60,574 bases of DNA from Bacilli bacterium (GTDB lineage Bacteria > Bacillota_I > Bacilli_A > RFN20 > CAG-826): assembly GCA_017626815.1 (NCBI GenBank), contig JAGAHY010000063.1, forward strand, positions 1 to 60,574, given 5' to 3'. Numbering within the stretch: position 1 is the stretch's first letter; each line of letters begins with the position of its first letter. A model generated the notes under the pieces. The model saw only the letters and a list, made by a program, of their open reading frames with translations, was not told the DNA's origin and ran no database searches. Shown here in pieces: positions 16,725-24,320 of this stretch. Both the position numbers and the translations under genes were made by a program.

Positions 16725-16994
16725 ATGGCTTTGTCCAAAGAAACGACCGCCAACATCGTCAAGAAGTTCGGCAAAAACGACAAGGACACCGGCTCCACCG
16801 AAGTCCAAGTCGCCCTTCTCACCGAAAGGATCAAAGACCTCACCGCCCACCTCAAAGCGAACCAGCAAGACGCGGGTGCCCGTAGGTCCCTCCTCATCCT
16901 CGTCGGCAAGAGGCGTTCCTTGCTCGCTTACCTCAGCTCCACCAATCCTGAGGGCTATTCCGAGCTCATCAAGAAACTCGGCATCCGTAAGTAA
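16725..16994 (+). CDS. rpsO: 30S ribosomal protein S15
   Basis: 89 aa, the normal length. It binds the central domain of 16S rRNA early in 30S assembly. The family segments TGSTEVQVALLTERI and RRSLLILVGKRRSLLAYL are present, ending in LIKKLGIRK. AAGGAG lies 8 nt before the ATG. It is transcribed alone with its own promoter and terminator. pnp, the usual next gene, is about 4.7 kb away. Confidence 0.98.
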   Translation: MALSKETTANIVKKFGKNDKDTGSTEVQVALLTERIKDLTAHLKANQQDAGARRSLLILVGKRRSLLAYLSSTNPEGYSELIKKLGIRK

Positions 16995-17012
16995 TCGGGC
17001 GTCAACAAGACA

Positions 17013-17039
17013 AGCCACCTTCGGGTGGTTTTCTTTTTG
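17013..17039 (+). terminator. Rho-independent terminator of rpsO
   Basis: CCACC and GGTGG flank a TTCG tetraloop, followed by TTTTCTTTTT. Confidence 0.85.
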
Positions 17040-17117
17040 CCCGATATCCTGTCTTCGCCCATTCCAGATCTCATTGACGCAGTGAAACAAGGAACTTTTG
17101 ACTTTTTTCGACTTTTT

Positions 17118-17154
17118 TTGTCAAATTCGCCCCTTTCCGGCATATAGGTTAAGT
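17118..17154 (+). promoter_or_regulatory. Promoter of the rpn-like gene, matching the comEA promoter
   Basis: TTGTCA (17118-17123), then 19 bp, then TATAGGTTAAGT (17143-17154). Spacing and the whole 12-base downstream block are identical in front of comEA at 54183. A conventional 17-bp reading would use CATATA as the -10 box. Confidence 0.55.
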
Positions 17155-17167
17155 GAAAGGAGCCATT

Positions 17168-18037
17168 ATGGACGGACCGAAAATGACATTGAAAGAAGAG
17201 GCTGTCGCCGCTGCGCATAAAAAACTTTGTCTCGCCGACGACGCGGCCATGACCGTGGTTCTTCAGAACAATCCGCGCCTAGCCAAGGCGATTCTTGTGC
17301 CGATCCTTGGTAGAAGCGACTTTGCCGTCGTCAAGGTGCAGACCCAAAAACACGTCGAGGGCTTCGATGGCCATAGCGTGAGGTTCGACTGCCTCATCCG
17401 CTTCCAAGACGGCACGCTCTGCGACCTCGAGATACAGAAAAGCGGGGGCGGGATGAACGCCGAGCGCGTTCAGACATACCAGGATGCCCTGGGCAGCCTC
17501 GCCCTGAGGAAGAGGGAAGACTACACTAAGCGCAAAAGGACGGTCCTCGTCGTCATCAATGACGGGGACCTGCTCGAGGCGGGCCTGCCGCTTTATGAGA
17601 TTAGGCCCATGGTATTGCAGACGGGCAAGCCGTTCCACGACAAAAGCGTCATCTACATCGCGAACCTGCGGGACAAGGACCCCACGACGGAGCTCGGCAG
17701 GCTTATGGCGGATTTGGAGTGCACGGAACCCGACAAAATGCAAATTGCACCTCTCCGGGAGGGACTGGAGATGATACAATCGGAGGCAGGAGAAGAAATG
17801 ATGGAAAGGGAAATGGAGAATCTCTACGAGAGGATCATGGCGGAAGGCCGCAGATTGGGCTTTGAGACCGGCCACAAAAAAGGTCAGAAGGAAGGCCGTT
17901 TAAAAGGCCAAAAGGAAGGCGGCTCTGAAATGCTCATCAAGCTCGTCCGCAGCGGCAAAATCACCGTCGAAGACGCGGCGGATGAACTCGGCATAAGCGT
18001 CGAGGACTTCGAAAGAATGATGAAGGCCAAAGCCTAG
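17168..18037 (+). CDS. Rpn-family PD-(D/E)XK nuclease (recombination-promoting nuclease/transposase-like)
   Basis: 289 aa. The N-terminal nuclease core has RFDCLIRFQDGTLCDLEIQ, matching the family's D-x-n-ExQ pattern at residues of roughly 80-100. The C-terminal tail has Gly/Lys-rich repeats (GHKKGQKEGRLKGQKEGG) and a helical hairpin. Rpn proteins are DNA endonucleases linked to recombination, and some are linked to phage defence. AAAGGAG lies 5 nt before the ATG at 17168; the GTG at 17153 precedes the ribosome binding site and is rejected. Inserted between rpsO and pnp. A strong internal in-frame start at 17798 probably yields a separate small protein. Confidence 0.85.
   Translation: MDGPKMTLKEEAVAAAHKKLCLADDAAMTVVLQNNPRLAKAILVPILGRSDFAVVKVQTQKHVEGFDGHSVRFDCLIRFQDGTLCDLEIQKSGGGMNAERVQTYQDALGSLALRKREDYTKRKRTVLVVINDGDLLEAGLPLYEIRPMVLQTGKPFHDKSVIYIANLRDKDPTTELGRLMADLECTEPDKMQIAPLREGLEMIQSEAGEEMMEREMENLYERIMAEGRRLGFETGHKKGQKEGRLKGQKEGGSEMLIKLVRSGKITVEDAADELGISVEDFERMMKAKA
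17798..18037 (+). CDS. Putative internally initiated Rpn C-terminal protein (intragenic antitoxin candidate)
   Basis: In frame with the rpn-like gene, an ATG at 17798 follows AGGAG by 5 nt, with a second GGAGG just before that (17782-17786). A TACAAT hexamer lies at 17775-17780. The 79-aa product would contain only the charged tail and the terminal helices. In other bacteria, rpn genes are reported to encode a small C-terminal protein from within the gene that blocks the toxic nuclease; the match here is by layout, not by measured homology. Confidence 0.5.
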   Translation: MMEREMENLYERIMAEGRRLGFETGHKKGQKEGRLKGQKEGGSEMLIKLVRSGKITVEDAADELGISVEDFERMMKAKA

Positions 18038-18054
18038 ACAAACCTCATCTTTTG

Positions 18055-18082
18055 ACGCGCCCTTTTGGGTGTGTTTTTTATT
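18055..18082 (+). terminator. Rho-independent terminator of the rpn-like gene
   Basis: ACGCGCCC and GGGTGTGT pair over eight positions (two G-U) around a TTTT loop. TTTTTATTT follows. Confidence 0.75.
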
Positions 18083-18112
18083 TGACTAGGAAATTGTATT
18101 TGACCTCCCCCG

Positions 18113-18139
18113 TAAGAAAACCGGCCTCCCTGGGCCGGC
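18113..18139 (-). terminator. Rho-independent terminator of the 1038-aa helicase gene
   Basis: On the minus strand, CCGGCCC and GGCCGG flank a short loop and are followed by TTTTCTT. It lies about 125 bp downstream of the helicase stop. Confidence 0.7.
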
Positions 18140-18262
18140 TTGGGGCTCCCGCATTCTTCTAGACGGAACTGTTCCATAAAACTGAAAAAGGTAAATACCG
18201 GATGTCGATGCTTATTCCTTGCTGATGCGAAATAGCCCGTTTTCCTCTGTTCACCATCGCCG

Positions 18263-21200
18263 TTACGCTGAGGGCTCGTCTAATTCGAAAAGCGATCCTT
18301 GGACGTAGCCGGTTTCGATGTCGGGGATGGCTTTGACCACGCATTCGAATAAGGCGATGATCAGCTGATAATCTTTCACTTGGCTGTTAGCAATGCGGAT
18401 GAGTTTGACCCCATAGTTGGCGCAGATATTCTCCTTGAGGCGGTCGTTTTTGGCGCTTTGCTTGGACCCGATATGCTCGCCGCCGTCGATTTCAAAGGCG
18501 ACGATGGTGCGGTAACGCCGTTTGACCATCCCTTCCGAAACTTGGATGATGACGTCGAATTCCTTTTTGCCGGTGAGTTGGAGGTCCGCCATCGCCAAAT
18601 TGGGGATGGCCTTCTTCATGGGGACGTTGCGTTCCACGCGCATGCGCTGTTTCCTTTTATTGAAATAAGGCGCGATGGTCTCGAAGAATTCTTTCTCGGA
18701 CTCGGAATCGTTGGAATAATTGGAGAAGGAGCGGTCGGTGATCGCGGGAACGATGGACTCTCCATTGGAATAGACATAGTCGGAAAGGGATTTGATGTCG
18801 TTATTTTCTTTGCCGCTAAGAAGGTTGATGGCCTCTTTGTCCCCAACGAAGACGAAACGTTCCTTCGCCCTAGTCACGGCGACATTGATGAGCTCGTGGT
18901 TGTTCTTAATCCAATCCATGGTCTTGCTGCCGGTGCGTGGGGACAATGCGGCGGAGAGAATAATAGTCGATTTCTCCGAGCCTTGGAGCATGTGGACGGT
19001 GCCCGCTTTGACCCCTTCGATTCCTTTGGCGCGAAGTAAGTCGTTGATGAGGTTGGCCTGGTTGACGAAAGGCGTGATGATGCCGACGTCCTCATAATGG
19101 TTCTTGGCGATGAGATTGACGATTCCCTCCGCTTCCTCGATGGAGGAATTGCGCTTGGTTTGGTGACGGATGTTCTTAACGTCGCAGTACACCAGTTTGC
19201 CTGGCGTGGCGTTTTCTAACTTCAATTGCCCTTGGTAGAAGCGGTCGTTGGAGAAACCGGCGATCTTTTTGCCGCACCGATAATGGTAGGAAAGCAAGAT
19301 GGACTTGGAATTCTCGTCTTTGCGCTGCATGGCCGAGAGAATGGAGTTGCTCATGTAGTCATAATCATCGCTGACCGCGTATTTGCCGCGGAGGCGTTCG
19401 TTGACCGCCGGCTCGATGACGGTGACGGGCTGAAGCTGGTTGACATCGCCGACAAGAAGCAAGGCTTTGGCGCGGATGACGGGGGTGAGGGAGGTGGCGA
19501 CGTTACATTGTCCCGCCTCATCCATGATGCAGAGATCGAAGTGGGGCTTGGGGGTGGCTAAGCGGTCGCTAGAAAGGTTCGTGGTGGCGATTAACGGGTA
19601 AATTTCTAAGAATTTACGCAGGTTTTCGGGGTCTTTGAGATAACGGTTTAAGCGCGAGGAAGCTTCGGCGAGGTCCTTGGTGAGGATGATGGAACGTAAC
19701 TCTTCGTTGACCGGGGAGAGCAATTTCTTCAGGCAGAGGACGCCCGAATAGAACATGTAATTATGGAAAGAGTCGCTGTCTTTGGCGGAGATGACGTAAT
19801 TCCCGATCATCTCGTTGCGGATTTTGGGAATGGCGGATAAGCGGGCGGACAAGATGGCCTTCTGCTTTTGGATTTCCTTGGCCATGGCGTCGTTTTTGGC
19901 GAGGGTTTCGATTTTGCTGAGCTTATCGAGGCGTTCTTTGACGTCGATGCGCTGCTCAAATTGAACCAAAAGGTCGCGAAGCTCGGAAAAACTCGATAGC
20001 GCGCCTTCTTTGCTGCGAAGCGTGGAGACTTCGTTGGCCTTAAGTTTTTCGTAGTCTTCGGCGCGGGAAAGATCCTCGCGGAGGGTGAGGATGGCTTTGA
20101 TGGTCTCTTGGCTGTTCCCCAACCGCAAAAAGGGGAGGCGGACGCTGACTGGCTTGCCTTGGTAGGTCCTGGAAAAGGTGGATCGCATCATTCTGGCGGC
20201 GATATCGTCGATGGGGTGGTTGTTATTGGAGCAGATCAGGACCTTTTTGGCGTTAGCGTAGGCGGAGAGGAGGACATTGAAAATGGTCTCCGTCTTGCCA
20301 GTCCCCGGCGGCCCTTGGACGTAGGTGACGGGGCTTACCATGGCGTTATAGACGACGCGCATTTGGTCGATGTTGACTTTGCTTTTGTCAAAGACGACGA
20401 CGCTGGCGTCTTTTTTAGGGCTGGCGATGGCGCGGTTGCGACCGAAGAAAGCCTTGATGGGCGTCTGCAGTTTCCCTTCTTTTTCTAATTCGGCGATGGA
20501 TTCGAACGTGGCGTCGACGTTATTGGAGAGCGCGCGTTCGATGAGGAAGATACTTGGCCTGGTGTTGACCATTTCGCCATGGCTGAAATTCTCCTCGATC
20601 ATGCGGATGAGGGCTTGCTTGGCTTCGTCGCTGCCGTTATAAGAGACGCAGAATTCCCTTTGGTCCATCTCCAAATACGACGACAGCGAGACTTTCTTGT
20701 CCTCGATGAGGAAAGAGGGGTTGATGGAGACGTCTTTCTCCACGCTTAGGGCTTTGGTGGCGAAGTTGAGGTTCAACTTATAGTAGGCGACCACATATTG
20801 CTTGCCGTTGATGTCGATGGAGAACGAATTGATGGCCATGTCCACGTAGCGGTAGTGGAATTCGGCTTCCGCCCTGGAACGTTTGAATAGGCGTTCCAAA
20901 ATCAGCTCGAAATCCTCGTCCGACAAGGTGATGGAGCGGTTCTTTTTGAGCTCGCGGATGTCGATCCCATCGAGCATCAACGTGTCTTTGATGTAGGGGT
21001 CGTTATCCATTTTGTAGCAATCGGAAAGATAGCCGAGGATATTGTTGTCGAAGGCTTCGGCTTCGAGGTAACTAAGCAACGCCTCATCTTTTTCGATGCG
21101 GCGAAGAAGCGAAGCGTCGCTAAGGTAAAAGCTTTGCTCGATGACCCTCGCGGAGAGGATGCCTTCGATGCGGATTTGGATGTCGCGGTCTTTTTTGAGG

Positions 21201-21379
21201 ATGTGCTGTTTCTTGAAGCAATTGAAAATGTCGCAGGATATCCGCCCGGACTTGATATCGATGTCCTTGATGCCGATGAAATAATCCGTGCGTTCTTGCT
21301 TTTGGTTGACGTAGTCGATGTCCAACCATTTGTTTTCGTTGACAGCGCGGTATATAGCCTGCTTGACGCTGAGCTTCAT
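18263..21379 (-). CDS. SF1 (Upf1-like) helicase with C-terminal DUF2726/REase-like domain
   Basis: 1038 aa. The N-terminal 50 residues look like a small WYL/SH3-type barrel (KWLDIDYVNQKQERTDY), an impression only. The helicase core has GPPGTGKTE near 355, CIMDEAGQ near 618, GDVNQLQP, SYHYRCGKKI, HMLQGSEKS and NVAVTRAKERFVFVGD. The end carries a PD-(D/E)XK-like domain with KKEFDVIIQ and later AFEIDGGEHIGSKQ near 961, as in DUF2726/DUF559. Such helicase-nuclease fusions often belong to defence loci, but repair is equally possible. Start ATG at 21379, six nt after TATCAT, with no ribosome binding site. Single-gene unit, inserted between rpsO and pnp. Confidence 0.85.
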   Translation of the reverse strand: MKLSVKQAIYRAVNENKWLDIDYVNQKQERTDYFIGIKDIDIKSGRISCDIFNCFKKQHILKKDRDIQIRIEGILSARVIEQSFYLSDASLLRRIEKDEALLSYLEAEAFDNNILGYLSDCYKMDNDPYIKDTLMLDGIDIRELKKNRSITLSDEDFELILERLFKRSRAEAEFHYRYVDMAINSFSIDINGKQYVVAYYKLNLNFATKALSVEKDVSINPSFLIEDKKVSLSSYLEMDQREFCVSYNGSDEAKQALIRMIEENFSHGEMVNTRPSIFLIERALSNNVDATFESIAELEKEGKLQTPIKAFFGRNRAIASPKKDASVVVFDKSKVNIDQMRVVYNAMVSPVTYVQGPPGTGKTETIFNVLLSAYANAKKVLICSNNNHPIDDIAARMMRSTFSRTYQGKPVSVRLPFLRLGNSQETIKAILTLREDLSRAEDYEKLKANEVSTLRSKEGALSSFSELRDLLVQFEQRIDVKERLDKLSKIETLAKNDAMAKEIQKQKAILSARLSAIPKIRNEMIGNYVISAKDSDSFHNYMFYSGVLCLKKLLSPVNEELRSIILTKDLAEASSRLNRYLKDPENLRKFLEIYPLIATTNLSSDRLATPKPHFDLCIMDEAGQCNVATSLTPVIRAKALLLVGDVNQLQPVTVIEPAVNERLRGKYAVSDDYDYMSNSILSAMQRKDENSKSILLSYHYRCGKKIAGFSNDRFYQGQLKLENATPGKLVYCDVKNIRHQTKRNSSIEEAEGIVNLIAKNHYEDVGIITPFVNQANLINDLLRAKGIEGVKAGTVHMLQGSEKSTIILSAALSPRTGSKTMDWIKNNHELINVAVTRAKERFVFVGDKEAINLLSGKENNDIKSLSDYVYSNGESIVPAITDRSFSNYSNDSESEKEFFETIAPYFNKRKQRMRVERNVPMKKAIPNLAMADLQLTGKKEFDVIIQVSEGMVKRRYRTIVAFEIDGGEHIGSKQSAKNDRLKENICANYGVKLIRIANSQVKDYQLIIALFECVVKAIPDIETGYVQGSLFELDEPSA

Positions 21380-21385
21380 GCCCTA

Positions 21386-21391
21386 ATGATA
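21386..21391 (-). promoter_or_regulatory. -10 box of the 1038-aa helicase, leaderless type
   Basis: TATCAT on the minus strand ends 6 nt before the ATG. TCGTCA lies 17 bp further upstream as a fair -35 hexamer. Confidence 0.45.
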
Positions 21392-21658
21392 TAGCAAATG
21401 ATGCTTCTTGACGAAAGAATTAGGCTAGATGGGCCTTTTCTCCAGCCTTCATCCGCGATTTCAAGGTAAATCGAAGAACGCTTTCGGGTCCGATGGCGGG
21501 AAAACGTCGTGACCTCACCCTGGCAGGAGACTTACTTTGACAAAAAATAAGACCTAGGTTTAACGTTCTCCAATCGGCGCGGGGGTTTGCATTTCCACCA
21601 TATAGGCATGGGGATTCAGGCAAAGCGAAACACATTCTTGATTTAAGGCTTCTTCTTT
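21392..21658. other. Intergenic region with no recognised gene
   Basis: Part of the 331-bp gap between the helicase start and pnp. Open frames here lack ribosome binding sites and do not read as protein. A TTGACA at about 21537 lacks a matching -10 box. I see no tRNA-like or other known RNA. Confidence 0.5.
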
Positions 21659-21678
21659 CACCCTTAAGGGTGTAAGAT
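21659..21678 (+). promoter_or_regulatory. Perfect palindrome abutting a -10-like box upstream of pnp
   Basis: CACCCTTAAGGGTG (21659-21672) is a 14-bp perfect palindrome directly followed by TAAGAT (21673-21678). If TAAGAT is the -10 box of pnp, the palindrome fills the spacer and is a natural operator position. It could instead be a short leader hairpin if transcription starts upstream. Confidence 0.4.
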
Positions 21679-21710
21679 ATCGCCGTTGTGAATTAAGAAA
21701 GAGAGTAACA

Positions 21711-23957
21711 ATGAAGAAAGTGTTTGAAACCGAATTCGCCGGACGCCACCTCAGCGTCGAGTTTGGCGAAATCGCAAAACAGGCCGACGGCTCGGCCTTC
21801 GTCCGTTTCGGTGACACGGTGGTACTTGGTACCGTCTGCTGCGCCGACGAACCCAAAGAGGGTGATTTCTTCCCCCTCACCGTCAACTATGAAGAAAAAT
21901 CCTACGCGGTTGGCAAAATCCCCGGCTCCTTCCTTCGCAGGGAAGGACGTGCAGGGGAGCACGCGACCTTAAGCGCCCGCCTCATCGACCGCCCGATCCG
22001 CCCGCTTTTCGCGGAAGGCTTCCGCAACGAAGTCCAAATCGTGGCCACCGTCATGTCCGTCGACCGCGACAATACCCCGGAGATGACCGGCATGCTCGCC
22101 GCCTCCTTGGCCCTTTGCACCTCCGACATCCCCTTTGACGGACCTGTCGCCGGCGTCTATGTCGGACGCGTGGATGGCAAGCTCATCATCGATCCTTCCG
22201 AGGAAGAGCGCGAGAAATCCGACATCGACCTCGCCGTCGCCGGCACCAGCGACGCCATCATGATGGTCGAAGCCGGCGCCGCCCAAGTCCCCGAAGAGGA
22301 GATGCTCGACGCCATCATGTTCGGCCACGAGGCCATCAAGGAACTCTGCGCCTTCCAAAAGAAAATCATCGATGAAATCGGCAAACCCAAGCGTGAGATC
22401 AGCCTCTATGCGCCCGATCCCGCCATCAAAGCCGACATCGAAGGCCGCATTGGCGAGCGTCTGGTCAAGGCCATCTCCATCTTCGACAAGCTCGAAAGGC
22501 AGCATGCCATCGACGCCCTCAAGAAAGAGATCACCGACGACTATGAGAAGCGCGAATACGAAGATGAGCACGACTACAAGATGTCCATGCTCATGGTCAA
22601 CGACATCCTCGAAGGCATGGTCGCCGCGGAAGTCCGCCGCCTCATCACCGACGAGAAGATCCGCCCCGACGGCCGCAAAGTCGACGAAATCCGTCCGTTG
22701 GACTGCCAAGTCGACCTCCTTCCCCGCGCCCACGGTTCGGCTATGTTCACCCGTGGTCAGACCCAAGTCATCGGCACCACGACCTTAGGGCCTTTAAGCG
22801 ACAAGCAACTCATCGATAACCTCACCGGCGAGACCGAGCGCCGCTTCATGCACCATTACAATTTCCCACCCTATTCCGTTGGCGAAATCGGCCGCATGGG
22901 CGCCCCTGGCCGCCGCGAAATCGGACACGGCAAACTCGGCGAGCGCGCCCTTAGCTATGTCCTCCCCTCCGAAGAGGAATTCCCGTACACCATCCGCTGC
23001 GTCGCCGACGTCGTCGAATCCAACGGCTCTTCCTCCCAGGCTTCCATCTGCGCCAACTGCATGTCCCTCATGTCCGCCGGCGTCCCCATCAAGGGCATCG
23101 TCTCCGGCATCGCCATGGGCCTCATCAGCTCCGGCCCGTTAGATGGCAACCATCCCTATACCATCCTCACCGATATCCAAGGCCTCGAAGACCACTTCGG
23201 TGACATGGACTTCAAATGCGCCGGCACCGAGAAGGGCCTCACCGCCCTCCAGATGGATATCAAGATCCACGGCGTCACCCGCGAAGTCCTCGCCGAGGCC
23301 CTCGCCCAAGCCAACAAAGCCCGCGCCGAAATCCGCGAAGCCATCAAGGCCTGCATCCCTGAGCCGCGCAAGGAAGTCTCCAAATACGCGCCTAAGATGA
23401 TCACCTTCAAGATTGACCCCGCGAAGATCCGCGAAGTCATCGGCAAAGGCGGCGAGACCATCCAAGGCATGATCCGCGCCTGCGACAACGCCACCATCGA
23501 CGTCGAAGATGACGGTACCGTCACCATCTACCACCATAACCAAGAGATGATCGCCAAGGCCAAAGCGATGATCGACGAGATCACCAAAGAAGCCCAAATC
23601 GGCGAAATCTACGAGGGTCAAGTCACCCGCGTCGAGGATTATGGCGCCTTCGTCAACCTCTTCGGCGAATGCGACGGCCTCTGCCACGTCTCCAGACTCA
23701 AATGGGACTATGTCGATAACGCCAACGACATCGTCAAAGTCGGCGATACCCTCAAAGTCGTGGTCATCGGCATTGAGATGGGCAAAGTCAAAGTCTCCCA
23801 CCGCGAATTCGAAGAGAAGCCCGAAGGCTTCGTCGAGCGTCCCGAACGCCCCGAAAAGCCCCGTGGCGGCAAGCCTCATGGCGGCCATAACGACCACCGT
23901 GGCGGCGGAGACCGCAAAGGCGGTAACCGCGGCGGCGATCGCGGCGGACGTCGTTAA
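21711..23957 (+). CDS. pnp: Polynucleotide phosphorylase
   Basis: 3'-5' phosphorolytic exoribonuclease of RNA turnover. 748 aa in the usual order: RNase PH-like domain 1, helical linker, RNase PH-like domain 2, KH domain (VIGKGGETIQGMI near 585) and S1 domain (GQVTRVEDYGAFVNLFGE near 635-700). The last 40 residues are an unusual Pro/Arg then Gly/Arg/His-rich tail (RGGG, GGDRGGRR) that may bind RNA. A weak GAGAG site precedes the ATG. In most Bacillota it directly follows rpsO; here an rpn-like gene and a helicase intervene. Confidence 0.97.
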   Translation: MKKVFETEFAGRHLSVEFGEIAKQADGSAFVRFGDTVVLGTVCCADEPKEGDFFPLTVNYEEKSYAVGKIPGSFLRREGRAGEHATLSARLIDRPIRPLFAEGFRNEVQIVATVMSVDRDNTPEMTGMLAASLALCTSDIPFDGPVAGVYVGRVDGKLIIDPSEEEREKSDIDLAVAGTSDAIMMVEAGAAQVPEEEMLDAIMFGHEAIKELCAFQKKIIDEIGKPKREISLYAPDPAIKADIEGRIGERLVKAISIFDKLERQHAIDALKKEITDDYEKREYEDEHDYKMSMLMVNDILEGMVAAEVRRLITDEKIRPDGRKVDEIRPLDCQVDLLPRAHGSAMFTRGQTQVIGTTTLGPLSDKQLIDNLTGETERRFMHHYNFPPYSVGEIGRMGAPGRREIGHGKLGERALSYVLPSEEEFPYTIRCVADVVESNGSSSQASICANCMSLMSAGVPIKGIVSGIAMGLISSGPLDGNHPYTILTDIQGLEDHFGDMDFKCAGTEKGLTALQMDIKIHGVTREVLAEALAQANKARAEIREAIKACIPEPRKEVSKYAPKMITFKIDPAKIREVIGKGGETIQGMIRACDNATIDVEDDGTVTIYHHNQEMIAKAKAMIDEITKEAQIGEIYEGQVTRVEDYGAFVNLFGECDGLCHVSRLKWDYVDNANDIVKVGDTLKVVVIGIEMGKVKVSHREFEEKPEGFVERPERPEKPRGGKPHGGHNDHRGGGDRKGGNRGGDRGGRR

Positions 23958-23973
23958 TCCCAATTCAATTATG

Positions 23974-24006
23974 AAGCCTAGGTAAGCTCGTTCTTGCCTA
24001 GGCTTT
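23974..24006 (+). terminator. Rho-independent terminator of pnp
   Basis: AAGCCTAGG and CCTAGGCTT form a 9-bp stem with extra internal pairing. The T run is short (TTTT then C). Confidence 0.65.
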
Positions 24007-24014
24007 TCATACTC

Positions 24015-24043
24015 TTGATAAGCAGTAAAAATTCCTTTACTAT
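24015..24043 (+). promoter_or_regulatory. Promoter of the AbrB/PIN pair
   Basis: TTGATA (24015-24020), a 17-bp spacer and TACTAT (24038-24043). An AAAGGAG ribosome binding site follows at about 24050. Confidence 0.65.
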
Positions 24044-24062
24044 CTTTACAAAGGAGAAAAAC

Positions 24063-24320
24063 ATGATTGAAACAACAACGATTTCATCGAAAGGACAGGT
24101 TACTATTCCTGCTTCTTTTCGGGATAAATTAGGTTTATCCGCAGGCTCAAAAGTCGCGTTTATTGATGGTGAAGACGGGAATGTTTACGTCATGAATGCG
24201 TCTATTCTTTCCTTGAAACGGCTTCAAGACATCTTTCAAAAGGTGGCTGATGAAAAGCCTTTTGAGAATGAAGAGCAAGCCATGGCGTTTGCTATCGATA
24301 CGAGAAAGGGGCGCAAATAA
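24063..24320 (+). CDS. AbrB/MazE-type antitoxin
   Basis: 85 aa. The N-terminal swapped-hairpin DNA-binding domain is clear (TTISSKGQVTIPASFRDKLGLSAGSKVAF). The C-terminal half is helical and acidic, as expected for a segment that wraps a toxin. AAAGGAG lies 7 nt before the ATG. The gene pairs with the PIN-domain frame 5 bp downstream and probably represses its own promoter. Codon use is more AT-rich than the neighbours, which suggests acquisition by transfer. Confidence 0.85.
   Translation: MIETTTISSKGQVTIPASFRDKLGLSAGSKVAFIDGEDGNVYVMNASILSLKRLQDIFQKVADEKPFENEEQAMAFAIDTRKGRK

Follow-up and report, generated by a model that had tools for sequence, protein, structure and literature searches.

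Candidate internal translation start, conserved among homologues, in an rpn-type nuclease gene of an uncultured Bacilli bacterium: a probable intragenic toxin-antitoxin

Results

Features of the locus

The stretch of DNA that we analysed (60,574 nucleotides of contig JAGAHY010000063.1; hereafter, the window) comes from a Bacilli bacterium of the genus CAG-826. On its forward strand, an rpnL-like gene at 17168-18037 encodes a full-length protein of 289 amino acid residues with a PD-(D/E)XK nuclease domain. In this part of the window (16725-23957), the gene has rpsO on one side and, on the other, a helicase-like gene encoded on the opposite strand, which is followed by pnp. The helicase gene (18263-21379, reverse strand) encodes 1038 residues with AAA_11/AAA_12 and DUF2726 domains and matches the PADLOC models MkoC and MkoA; it is a possible defence gene adjoining rpn. 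A putative promoter, TTGTCA ... TATAGG (17118-17148, forward strand), was recognised by eye upstream of the rpn gene and was not called by the promoter scan; its spacing is shared with a truncated paralogue (L002). The scan found a terminator-like hairpin directly after the gene (18054-18075, forward strand).

In a profile search, the window protein scored 28.4 bits against PF12784 (PDDEXK_2; cut-off, 27.4). With TIGR01784 (Rpn), it scored 24.8 bits over residues 25-282, which is below the curated cut-off of 52.1; thus, we assigned the gene to the broader PF12784 family and not to the TIGR01784 subfamily model. The name of PF12784, "PD-(D/E)XK nuclease family transposase", implies transposition. 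We saw nothing at this locus in favour of such a role, and Zhong et al. (2023, PMC10327210) argue against it. Matches of the protein to the FliH and Yae1 profiles were taken as low-complexity coiled-coil matches, and no PADLOC model matched the protein itself (P0001).

The nuclease domain covers about residues 21-204 (17228-17779, forward strand), as judged from the catalytic residues, the published RpnA mutants (PMC5350276), and the alpha/beta core in the structural model. Residues D25, D74, E88, Q90, and R100 correspond to D11, D63, E82, Q84, and R94 of RpnA, a correspondence that rests on the family alignment and on spacing relative to the published RpnA positions rather than on direct alignment to RpnA. 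Mutation of these positions in RpnA abolished or changed its activity (PMC5350276). In our alignment A3, D25, D74, E88, and R100 were conserved in at least 90% of the sequences.

The AlphaFold2 model of the window protein (mean pLDDT 88.9, pTM 0.74) consists of the alpha/beta nuclease part followed by helices at residues 206-261, 267-274, and 278-288. The predicted C-terminal anatomy, a long first helix with two further helices, is that of RpnA-S. A profile of the C-terminal family matched the solved RpnA-S domain (7TH0) weakly (E = 0.061). Within the long helix, four 12-nucleotide repeats encode GHKK GQKE GRLK GQKE (17870-17917, forward strand); four-residue repeats of the same kind are known in Rpn proteins (PMC10327210). 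A Foldseek search gave nothing below 1e-3; several of the weak matches were to PD-(D/E)XK folds such as McrC, NucS/EndoMS, and SfsA.

Internal start sites in the window gene

A preliminary description of this DNA had proposed that a second protein may be translated from within the gene. The in-frame ATG at 17798 on which this proposal was based is indeed present, preceded at a gap of 5 nucleotides by AGGAG (17788-17792, forward strand), a Shine-Dalgarno (SD) site that is kept at the aligned place in homologues; the additional purine-rich, SD-like GGAGG (17782-17786, forward strand) and the TACAAT hexamer (17775-17780) were also found as described. The resulting rpnS-like ORF (17798-18037, forward strand) would encode a predicted antitoxin of 79 residues, a designation drawn from the alignment, the 7TH0 profile match, and the model helices. 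A second ATG at 17801 immediately follows (Met-Met, residues 211 and 212); the internal Met of a homologue from the same genus (L004) aligns with this second one, and a product starting there would have 78 residues. In the model, both Met residues lie close to where the long first helix of the predicted C-terminal domain begins.

We ranked SD sites by an ungapped anti-SD pairing energy of our own construction, which uses approximate stacking values and serves as a ranking measure rather than as an exact energy. The SD of ATG 17798 scored -9.8 kcal/mol; on this scale, E. coli rpnE and rpnC have internal starts of -10.7 and -13.4. The preliminary description overstated the case in ranking the site above most of the window's gene starts: when the best start within the first 40 codons was chosen for each of 42 long ORFs, 20 had a start as strong or stronger. 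Since, in addition, 12 of the window's 310 internal in-frame ATGs were as strong, the site is not exceptional by itself.

The TACAAT hexamer is part of TGATACAAT (17772-17780, forward strand), an extended -10-like element that, speculatively, may belong to an internal promoter. Its TGNTANAAT is common to L002 and L004. The promoter scan called no sigma-70-like promoter upstream of the internal start, and TGATACAAT has no good -35 element.

Conservation of the internal start

Relatives of the gene were sparse, being present in 4 of the 31 genomes of the genus (including that of the window) and in 6 of the 279 genomes of the order. A scan of contigs with alignment A2 as the query retrieved the contig of genome G023, from the same genus, and two Spirochaetaceae loci; the same scan with P0001 as the query gave no match, and no relatives were found in the viral contigs and plasmids searched. 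We aligned 35 homologous ORFs with MAFFT. In 30 of them, an ATG lies within four columns of the Met encoded at 17801, and in 23 of the 30 the SD of this aligned ATG scores -9.7 kcal/mol or better, compared with 9 of the 266 other in-frame ATGs. After dereplication at 60% identity, the values were 15 of 21 homologues and 3 of 155 other ATGs (Fisher's exact test, 2e-14); we set the threshold by the score of the window gene itself and, for each homologue, chose the strongest ATG close to the column, two choices that bias the result slightly in favour. Thus, the conservation of the internal SD and ATG, the check proposed in the preliminary description, was borne out. The SD was below the threshold in the remaining 6 of the 21 homologues, and a subfamily from genome G017 (L005, L009, and L016) has no SD and ATG at the aligned place. 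The contig of the paralogue L002 ends right after AAAGGGAGGTAAGAA; thus, its internal ATG is out of view.

The small protein might instead, or in addition, start at an ATG at 17771 (17771-17773, forward strand), which is in frame, 27-30 nucleotides from the other two, and would give a product of 88 residues. Its SD, GGGAGG (17757-17762, forward strand), is the strongest in the gene (-13.4 kcal/mol), and an SD is also present at the aligned ATG of L002 (-10.3); however, that of L004 is weaker (-7.3), the other homologues and most of the stand-alone copies described below begin at the Met aligned with 17801, and the SD region of ATG 17771 is predicted to be less accessible (unpaired fraction, 0.42, versus 0.61 for 17798/17801). 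We therefore regard ATG 17771 as a possible, though not the likely, start.

It is also conceivable that the internal SD and ATG are incidental, a stretch rich in Glu and Gly before a helix-starting Met resembling an SD by its composition, and that the full-length protein alone is made. The frequency of equally strong internal ATGs in the window is in keeping with this explanation, as are the tests on the window gene alone: within-gene synonymous shuffles gave p = 0.30, and a position-specific synonymous test was not significant (p = 0.11). On the evidence of the window by itself, chance could account for the site. However, strong SDs among the homologues cluster at a single aligned Met although the preceding residues change: the SD is written via different residues and codon registers (EGG GAAGGAGG, KGR AAAGGGAGG, RR AGGAGG, and KED AAGGAGGAC), and stand-alone copies in other genomes keep the same SD and Met. 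Given the residues, synonymous codon choice across the homologues was biased towards the SD (combined p = 0.0015, or 0.0008 when the EGG-type sites were left out). The support expected from synonymous sites was accordingly obtained for the homologues taken together and not for the window gene by itself. An earlier within-gene shuffling test, which took the maximum across every ATG, gave a weak result (combined p = 0.014) and counted L004 and L001 more than once via overlapping loci; it was replaced by the aligned, dereplicated tests. The conservation makes the site more than a chance occurrence, and we consider an incidental origin unlikely.

Stand-alone copies of the C-terminal domain

In G023 (contig C83; MAG RGIG5035, from roe deer rumen), two stand-alone copies of the C-terminal domain lie downstream of the rpn gene (L004/L040). 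Each begins at an SD and ATG resembling the internal start, and in the first copy the internal AAAGAAAGGGAGG..CACCATG context recurs almost unchanged. The genome from which the window derives (G000) has stand-alone copies downstream of rpn at two other loci, L003/L054 (contig C141) and L018 (contig C128), the latter being assigned to rpn by tblastn with no Pfam match. G027 (L008) also has a copy downstream of rpn, as do several other Bacilli (for example, L007, L023, L024, and L027). Most of the stand-alone copies begin at the same SD and Met as the internal start, the copies at L072, L051, and L048 not being counted in this majority; the SD is weaker in L007 (-9.0) and L024 (-8.6). One copy, of 73 residues, scored just above the cut-off of UPF0175. 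These downstream copies support the view that the C-terminal domain can be an independent gene. The window gene has no such copy downstream and is followed instead by the terminator-like hairpin. A downstream C-terminal fragment at L038 has no SD start and was hence excluded from the antitoxin count. Tandem full-length rpn genes were seen at L038, L025, and L031 (G462).

The number of four-residue repeats in the stand-alone copy differed from that in the intragenic copy in 11 of 13 Bacilli copies. For ten copies, the difference in length from the intragenic domain was -4, +8, +12, -24, -4, +9, +8, -8, -8, and +15 residues; at L027, the stand-alone copy has 58 residues versus 107 for the intragenic one. 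The copies at L068 and L072 showed no difference in repeats (L072 as judged by eye). For the intragenic copy in E. coli rpnE and the stand-alone ypaA (L073 and L101-L116), 17 genomes were read and gave 16 pairs, nine of them distinct, and none of the 16 matched in repeat number; this sample was non-random, being picked from 60 evenly ranked matches to cover different lengths, whereas 5,371 E. coli genomes had a match in all. The idea that matched repeats are avoided in E. coli was not supported: independent variation gave no match in 27-37% of permutations (P = 0.27-0.37), and thus the pairs show a lack of coupling, not avoidance.

Discussion

Intragenic toxin-antitoxin systems of the RpnL/RpnS type have been described for RpnA-E of E. 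coli, RpnP2 of a plasmid, and an Rpn of C. difficile, and the published E. coli and C. difficile genes work as genes within genes (PMC10327210). The window gene resembles them in having a PD-(D/E)XK nuclease with the catalytic residues of RpnA, a helical C-terminal domain that contains four-residue repeats and is preceded by an internal SD and ATG, and relatives some of which are accompanied by stand-alone C-terminal copies. It differs from the E. coli systems in that its sequence is distant, with a TIGR01784 score below the cut-off; it also has two possible internal starts and no adjoining stand-alone copy.

The conserved SD and ATG, the synonymous excess across the homologues, and the stand-alone copies support the preliminary description's reading of the locus as an intragenic toxin-antitoxin, the function being taken from the published family (PMC10327210). 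In our view, the window gene is probably a gene within a gene of the RpnL/RpnS type that makes two proteins. The full-length protein would be a DNA nuclease of the Rpn family, RpnL-like and toxic when unrestrained. Inside the gene, translation from ATG 17798/17801, directed by the ribosome binding site at 17788-17792, would yield an RpnS-like C-terminal domain of 78-79 residues, a predicted helical oligomerisation domain. Because the small protein would have the same sequence as the end of the large protein, it could bind that end and keep the nuclease inactive. Its release, for example in phage infection, would then allow DNA cleavage, and the system might serve in defence.

The C-terminal product could alternatively be a structural subunit for assembly or activity of the nuclease, like Cas11d, a small C-terminal subunit likewise translated from an internal start within the larger type I-D gene cas10d (cited in PMC10327210); the two have this anatomy in common, but we consider such a role quite improbable, since the small protein is inhibitory in the Rpn systems tested (PMC10327210), whereas Cas11d is required for activity.

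If the window gene is of the RpnL/RpnS type, it is a credible further member of a kind of system already described in E. coli, not a new kind. Tests of gene-within-gene Rpn toxin-antitoxins have so far covered E. coli and a single gene of C. difficile; the window gene would widen their range to uncultured Bacilli of the gut, and the comparison of homologues adds evidence for conservation of the internal start in the nucleotide sequence itself. The many stand-alone copies whose repeat numbers differ from those of the intragenic ones pose a question that can be tested, namely what the extra antitoxins recognise. The repeat rule comes from tests on one protein, RpnC, in which neutralisation is abolished by an additional repeat (PMC10327210); on this basis, the stand-alone copies would be predicted not to inhibit the neighbouring toxin. 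It is conceivable, though less likely than not, that they counteract different Rpn toxins instead, in the manner of orphan immunity genes.

The surroundings of the gene vary among relatives. In several members of the genus, pnp follows rpsO at about 0.1-1 kb, and in G017 a distant rpn gene of another subfamily adjoins rpsO on its downstream side. Together with the rpn and helicase genes between rpsO and pnp in the window, this suggests that the rpsO-pnp interval may be an insertion-prone site. The small protein encoded at 23994-24320 has an antitoxin domain of the MazE type (PF04014).
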